From NCBI GenBank assembly GCA_018061255.1, contig JAGOUN010000007.1, forward strand, positions 1 through 33,347: 33,347 nucleotides of DNA, given 5' to 3'. This document shows positions 13,467-15,166 of this stretch, in pieces. Made by a program: the position numbers and the translations under genes. Under the pieces are notes generated by a model. The model saw only the letters and a program-made list of their open reading frames with translations, was not told the DNA's origin and did not search any database. The stretch's first letter is position 1; each line of letters starts with the position of its first letter. The stretch is from Gammaproteobacteria bacterium. GTDB lineage: Bacteria; Pseudomonadota; Gammaproteobacteria; JAGOUN01.

Positions 13467-13491
13467 TTGTCTTAATTACAAGGATACTACG

Positions 13492-13833
13492 ATGCTCGCT
13501 CTTCCAGCATGCCCCTCATGTCATTCAGAATATACTTACGAAGATCGTGGTATGTTTATTTGTCCTGAGTGCGCGCACGAATGGAAAGTGGATGCAGAAA
13601 ATGATAGCAGCGATAGCGCCGTAAAAATCACTGATGCGAATGGACAACTTTTATTGGATGGCGACTCAGTTGTGGTTATCAAAGATTTAAAAGTGAAAGG
13701 TTCTTCATCCGTCGTAAAAGTGGGCACTAAAGTAAAAAATATTAGGCTTGTCGATGGCGATCATAATATTGATTGTAAAATTGATGGCATTGGTGCAATG
13801 AAATTAAAATCAGAGTTTGTCAAAAAAGCGTAA
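13492..13833 (+). CDS. yjdM: YjdM/PhnA-type zinc-ribbon protein
   Basis: This small protein of 113 residues has an N-terminal zinc ribbon, C7-x2-C10 and C24-x2-C27 (ACPSC, FICPEC), followed by the PhnA/YjdM β-rich domain with [23 protein letters not shown] and a lysine-rich end. The family was first named for alkylphosphonate genes, but a direct role there is not established. The frame opens at 13450, inside wrbA, but the ATG at 13492 has AAGGA seven bases before it and matches the family start [10 protein letters not shown]. It ends the typA-wrbA-yjdM group. Confidence 0.9.
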
Positions 13834-14126: not shown

Positions 14127-14156
14127 AAGGGGCAGCGTAGCCGGCCGCCCCTTTTC
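14127..14156. terminator. Bidirectional GC-rich terminator hairpin
   Basis: AAGGGGC (14127-14133) pairs with GCCCCTT (14147-14153); an A-C mismatch is followed by a two-base GC/GC inner pair. The plus strand continues TTTTCC and the minus strand TTCTTCT, so it could stop transcripts from both sides: the yjdM side on plus and the candidate Csr-type RNA on minus. The poly-U tract is better on the plus strand. Confidence 0.7.
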
Positions 14157-14415
14157 CGTTGAGTCCTTTCACAGAGAGTCATCCTTGCCGCCTATTGCAT
14201 TTTCTTGTTCCTTAAGAAAACCTGGCATCCTTACCTTCAGCGGACATTCAATCCTTAAAAAAACTGTATCCATACCATATGGCCCAATCCTTAAGCCGTC
14301 GTTCATCCCGAACAAGACTCATTGTGCTGGTTTTTCGATGTAACACAATCTCCTTAAGAGTTATTGTTACGGGATAATCAGCGAGTTTTTCAATATAAGT
14401 ATTATTTATCAATAA
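14127..14415 (-). ncRNA. Candidate CsrB/RsmY-type small RNA (CsrA sponge)
   Basis: On the minus strand, nine ANGGA motifs lie between 14355 and 14155: seven AAGGA (14351-14355, 14288-14292, 14252-14256, 14228-14232, 14209-14213, 14182-14186, 14164-14168), one ATGGA (14269-14273) and one ACGGA (14155-14159). Several sit in hairpin loops: TTTTCTT/AAGAAAA (14220-14200) with loop AAGGAAC; GGT/GCC (14235-14224) with loop AAGGAT; GTA/TAC (14275-14266) with loop TGGA; GGC/GCC (14297-14281); and TTGTTC/GAACGA (14315-14299) with loop GGGAT. CsrB/RsmY/RsmZ RNAs bind the repressor CsrA through such loops. A promoter-like pair lies upstream and a GC-rich hairpin ends it. The 5' end is estimated. Confidence 0.62.
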
Positions 14416-14421
14416 CATAAA

Positions 14422-14587: not shown

Positions 14588-15166
14588 TTATGGTAATGTG
14601 CTAATAATATGCGCATGACCACCGTCTATACCTGCTACAAGAACTTTTTGTCCCACTTGTAGGACTTGTTGGCCTTGTCCTTGAACAATATTGATATAAC
14701 GATTGGCGGCAGACTTGCTTCCAATGGTTGTAGTTGAGGTGTTTTTAGTAGTTGTGCTTGATGTGCTTTGCCCATTAGTGGTAATGGTGGTTGTTCCGCT
14801 ATCCTGCTGCGCTAATTTGACCACATATTCTATGCCTTGTTGTGTCGTCAATTTATCTTCAATCGCATTACCTGCCGCACCACCAGCAACAGCTCCTGCA
14901 AGGCCAGTTGCGTAGCGCATATTACCGCCACCTACTGCAGAGCCGGCAAGAGCGCCTAAGCCAGCGCCTGTGAGCGTTCCTATCATATTGCTGTCGCTTT
15001 TAACGGTTACAGCGCGTTTAGAGACAATGACGCCTTCCACTGCAGTTTGGGCTTCATTGGCGTTAGATGCTGATACGACGTCGGGAGAAATATTCGTCGC
15101 ACAAGCGCTCAATCCTAAGCTTAGTGCAACAATAACTGCGCTGGTTAACAATTTTTTTTTCATCAT
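14588..15166 (-). CDS. SlyB-like glycine-zipper outer-membrane lipoprotein
   Basis: The protein is 192 residues with a lipoprotein signal ending LSAC (lipidated C22). The mature part contains a glycine-zipper segment (GTLTGAGLGALAGSAVGGG, then GLAGAVAGGAAGNAIEDKLT) typical of the SlyB/Pcp 17-kDa family of outer-membrane lipoproteins. Family members are about 155 residues. Here a Thr/Ser-rich insert (TTTITTNGQSTSSTTTKN onward, about 30 residues) interrupts the C-terminal β-region before INIVQGQGQQVLQVGQKVLV. Function is probably envelope integrity, by family. A GAGGAA site precedes the double ATG and a strong terminator follows the stop, so it is a single-gene unit. Confidence 0.82.
   Translation of the reverse strand: MMKKKLLTSAVIVALSLGLSACATNISPDVVSASNANEAQTAVEGVIVSKRAVTVKSDSNMIGTLTGAGLGALAGSAVGGGNMRYATGLAGAVAGGAAGNAIEDKLTTQQGIEYVVKLAQQDSGTTTITTNGQSTSSTTTKNTSTTTIGSKSAANRYINIVQGQGQQVLQVGQKVLVAGIDGGHAHIISTLP

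Follow-up and report, generated by a model that had tools for sequence, protein, structure and literature searches.

The window analysed here, a stretch of 33,347 nucleotides from contig C7 of a 1.95-Mb draft genome (G000), very probably encodes a CsrB/RsmZ-type small RNA that titrates CsrA and is activated by GacA, as one of a trio of the RsmXYZ/CsrB type. The host is an uncultured relative of Legionella, represented by a Legionellales MAG. The predicted RNA, termed W, is about 187 nt long, is intergenic on the minus strand at about positions 14313-14127, and contains eight ANGGA motifs together with a GTTC-GGGAT-GAAC hairpin. A second genome of the same genus (G002) carries the W locus too. 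An earlier note on this DNA had read the region as a CsrA-sequestering RNA, and this reading is supported at the sequence level by an excess of motifs, their presentation in loops, conservation in G002, an upstream inverted repeat, the presence of CsrA and GacA in the host, and two sister loci. From these features we infer that W is transcribed, where it starts, that GacA and IHF act on it, and that it binds CsrA. RNAs of this kind are expected in a gammaproteobacterium that has both CsrA and GacA.

From 14355 to 14155, the minus strand holds nine ANGGA motifs (AAGGA seven times, ATGGA and ACGGA once each), exactly as the earlier note had counted. It had also proposed a comparison with shuffled sequences, and the count clearly exceeds such controls: dinucleotide shuffles of 14415-14127 contained 2.3 motifs on average and 7 at most, and 0/5000 reached nine. 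Over the rest of the window, counts in 250-nt stretches of both strands do not go above 5. Within the refined W transcript the number is eight, versus 0.54 expected from the motif density of the window, and 7/8 of these are retained in G002.

About half of the ANGGA motifs of W are presented in loops, and the rest are not. Local folding gave four GGA with a loop probability, P(loop), above 0.5 and another at 0.45, and the previous claim of at least five GGA in loops was thus slightly generous. The summed loop presentation of W (3.88) is nevertheless far above the mean of 0.93 in controls in which the motifs were kept in place and the remaining sequence was shuffled (0/150). The perfect 7-bp stem described earlier is exact (TTTTCTT-AAGGAAC-AAGAAAA, 14200-14220, minus strand), with a P(loop) of 0.97 in W and 0.98 in G002. 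A 5' hairpin, GTTC-GGGAT-GAAC (14301-14313, minus strand; P(loop) 0.94), offers a further GGA beyond the eight ANGGA, and its loop reads AGGAT in G002.

Upstream of W is a GacA/UvrY-type activator site, TGTAAGccatctCTTAtt (TGTAAGccatctCTTATT), at 14490-14473 on the minus strand, with 2 mismatches to TGTAAG-N6-CTTACA, the consensus for UvrY and GacA (PMC4682653, PMC4950607). After it comes GTAAGATTGC, which resembles the extra element behind the E. coli csrB site. Seven copies of TGTAAG-N6-CTTA occur in the 1.95-Mb genome, and only that of W precedes an ANGGA cluster; the remaining six, with no such cluster behind them, were rejected as further sRNA sites. No printed version of the LetA consensus of Legionella turned up in the literature searched. 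The activator site and the adjoining 51 bases are 100% identical to G002. Elsewhere, identity is 84% in the pre-promoter stretch (14421-14348), 93% in the promoter, 90% in the transcript body, and 100% in the terminator. DNA matches in two other genomes (G022 and G034) were set aside, being short and within the AT-rich promoter region.

A scan of the genome for an AAGGA-triplet pattern, used as the paralogue search, found two more intergenic clusters. The second CsrA-sponge-like RNA, B2 (G000:C1:67866-67596, minus strand), has eight ANGGA and an orthologue in G002, and its neighbours are presumably topA and ubiE. It opens with a GTTC-AGGAT-GAAC hairpin, which is the 5' hairpin of W by alignment, and its activator site is followed by GTAGGA, much like that of E. 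coli csrB. The third, Y (G000:C32:11858-11729, minus strand), packs eight ANGGA into 130 nt, matches no Rfam family, and has orthologues in G002 and in genome G001. Among 369 genomes, a model of Y picked up relatives only within the genus (none in the 366 others sampled from the class, under strict filters). The repeats upstream of B2 and Y read GTGAG-N6-CT(C/T)A and fit the consensus less well than that of W. Two other AAGGA clusters, at G000:C1:83483 and G000:C76, contain fewer motifs and lie amid overlapping ORFs, and were left aside.

The three promoter regions share a further element. In W it is a putative IHF-like site, TATCAATAACATA, at 14407-14419 on the plus strand, with 1 mismatch to WATCAANNNNTTR, and it begins 53 bases past the activator site. 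The best IHF-like match in the promoters of W, B2, and Y has one mismatch, is on the same strand, and lies 52-53 bases after the repeat in each case. A lone match of this quality has no significance, occurring in about 20-43% of shuffles; only the shared position is significant, as 0/3000 shuffles of the three promoters reproduce it. The UvrY repeat of E. coli csrB has its centre at -183/-182, with an IHF site in the intervening DNA (PMC4682653), and our own check showed that this interval likewise holds IHF-consensus matches.

The spacing of the activator site also bears on the 5' end. A probable promoter, TTGTGT-N16-CACAAT, lies at 14348-14321 on the minus strand and is 93% conserved. With it, the distance from the start of the activator site to the -10 element is 164 bases in W, compared with 163/164 in B2 and 177 in Y, and it is preferred because of this agreement with the paralogues. 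We infer that W probably starts near 14313 and not near 14415. With the 5' end at this position, eight rather than nine ANGGA fall within the RNA; the ninth, an AAGGA at 14355-14351 (minus strand), is upstream of the probable promoter and reads AAAGA in G002. The -35/-10 pair pointed out by the earlier note does exist (TTTACA-17-TATCTT, 14450-14422), but such pairs are no commoner here than in shuffles, and the better-supported promoter is about 100 bases downstream. If W were a sponge that starts at the upstream pair, it would be about 289 nt long with nine ANGGA. This longer form is unlikely, even though the pair combines a 9/12 hexamer match with 17-base spacing and conservation is complete (100%) as far as 14422. 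Full conservation of that stretch is equally expected of activator-site DNA, and it falls to 84% over 14421-14348, where the longer RNA would begin. Moreover, the additional AAGGA of such a transcript is lost in G002, and its promoter would set the activator site only 63 bases from the -10 element, versus 163-177 in the paralogues.

At the other end, the shorter W transcript finishes in an intrinsic terminator hairpin (14153-14127, minus strand), which bears out the GC-rich terminal hairpin proposed previously; it is 100% conserved in G002, though its T tail (CTTCTCT) is weak. The region had also been described as lacking any ORF. This holds in the sense that none is conserved, but ORFs of 48-56 codons do overlap W. 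The ATG of the 56-codon ORF at 14418 is lost in G002, and a one-base deletion there in a T run shifts the frames of both the 56-codon and the 48-codon ORFs. A Pfam search of the overlapping small ORFs gave no match. Since AAGGA doubles as a ribosome-binding core, the AGGA repeats might be Shine-Dalgarno sites of these ORFs, or the region might be an mRNA leader; both versions are very improbable, given the unconserved start codon and frames, the absence of Pfam matches, the terminator that comes next, and the following gene, yjdM, which is convergent and absent in G002. Like its class, W is intergenic, non-coding, and equipped with a terminator.

The upstream neighbour of W is a glycine-zipper lipoprotein gene (14588-15166, minus strand) with its own terminator-like hairpin. 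On the terminator side lies yjdM (yjdM/phnA; 13483-13833, plus strand). This gene was not found in G002 or on its syntenic contig, nor was it detected in G001, and its position beside W reflects a recent gain or loss. Because yjdM is missing downstream of W in G002 while W persists, W is not coupled to this gene. Between the W terminator and yjdM, in DNA that is otherwise empty, lies a sigma-70-like promoter pair with a 10/12 match (13952-13925, minus strand). That W is a chance purine-rich cluster in non-functional intergenic DNA is hardly credible: its global folding energy is indeed unexceptional (z -1.26), a measure that in our own judgement is uninformative for an RNA built of short hairpins, but the shuffles (0/5000), the conservation, and the promoter layout shared by three loci argue against such an accident.

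The partner proteins of a CsrA-sponge circuit are encoded in the host genome. It has one CsrA and, next to a gene that we take to be queA, an orthologue of GacA/UvrY with 57% identity; several of its hybrid kinases align to BarA. W combines an upstream GacA/UvrY inverted repeat with a GacA orthologue in the genome. G001 keeps the pair of gacA and a queA-like gene, both split between frames, which suggests indel sequencing errors and not pseudogenes. A GacA orthologue was not found in G002, which is reported to be 99% complete and in which all three sponge RNAs are intact. As the universal gene uvrC was not found there either, the missing GacA possibly reflects an assembly gap.

A mechanism can be proposed on this basis. 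On a signal, the phosphorylated GacA/UvrY orthologue would bind the inverted repeat at 14490-14473. Bending of the DNA, in which IHF may take part, would then bring bound GacA to the sigma-70 promoter about 165 bases downstream, and phospho-GacA with IHF may activate all three sponge genes in this manner. The W RNA would offer GGA in several hairpin loops and in single-stranded spacers, and could bind several CsrA dimers. Titration of CsrA would in turn free its target mRNAs, as is established for CsrB/RsmZ and for RsmX/Y/Z of Legionella (PMC4682653, PMC5338858, PMC5928044).

It is likely that W, B2, and Y form a lineage-specific set of three CsrA sponges, confined to one uncultured genus of the Legionellales, alike in their GacA-IHF-promoter layout and evolving too fast for library models. 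If this is true, CsrA sponges may be widely under-annotated in Legionellales. A joint search for a GacA site, the IHF offset, and an ANGGA cluster finds RNAs that are missed by models of sequence and structure. The sponge mechanism itself is already well known, and W, B2, and Y are additional predicted RNAs of that type. The switch of Legionella cells between replication and transmission works through CsrA and is controlled by LetA, the GacA orthologue, together with the Rsm RNAs (PMC5338858). That a small-genome uncultured relative has a complete CsrA/GacA circuit, three sponge RNAs included, suggests a Legionella-like switch there.

At curated thresholds, Rfam recognises only a tRNA in the window. 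Below them, the CsrB model (RF00018) aligns end to end with W (21.5 bits, E 7e-4) and with B2 (29.2 bits, E 6e-5), short of the gathering cut-off of 71 bits in both cases. The W orthologue in G002 has a negligible match only, to CsrC (11.9 bits). With scores so far below the cut-off, W should not be filed as RF00018. The whole-genome CsrB search did not recover W, apparently because it was lost in pre-filtering. The earlier note had seen no likeness to known RNAs and had suggested running the CsrB, RsmY, and RsmZ models; the end-to-end CsrB alignment contradicts the former, although it is true that the matches are sub-threshold and that a library search misses W, and the RsmY and PrrB_RsmZ models gave no listed match to W or B2.

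Several known systems resemble the W set. The RsmX/RsmY/RsmZ RNAs of Pseudomonas (RF00166, RF00195), of which some species have three copies (PMC4950607), are likewise short, carry several ANGGA, and have the GacA site TGTAAG-N6-CTTACA, whereas neither W nor B2 has a listed match to the Rfam RsmY/RsmZ models. Legionella pneumophila has up to three RNAs, RsmX/RsmY/RsmZ, which are activated by LetA and sequester CsrA (PMC5928044, PMC5338858); they belong to the same broad taxonomic group and are likened to the W set by description. The CsrB/RsmB and CsrC RNAs of E. coli and Salmonella (RF00018, RF00084) resemble W in their many GGA hairpins, intergenic location, and terminator. CsrB, at 369 nt, is about twice as long as W (187 nt), and has, as W does in putative form, a UvrY inverted repeat far upstream and an IHF site between.
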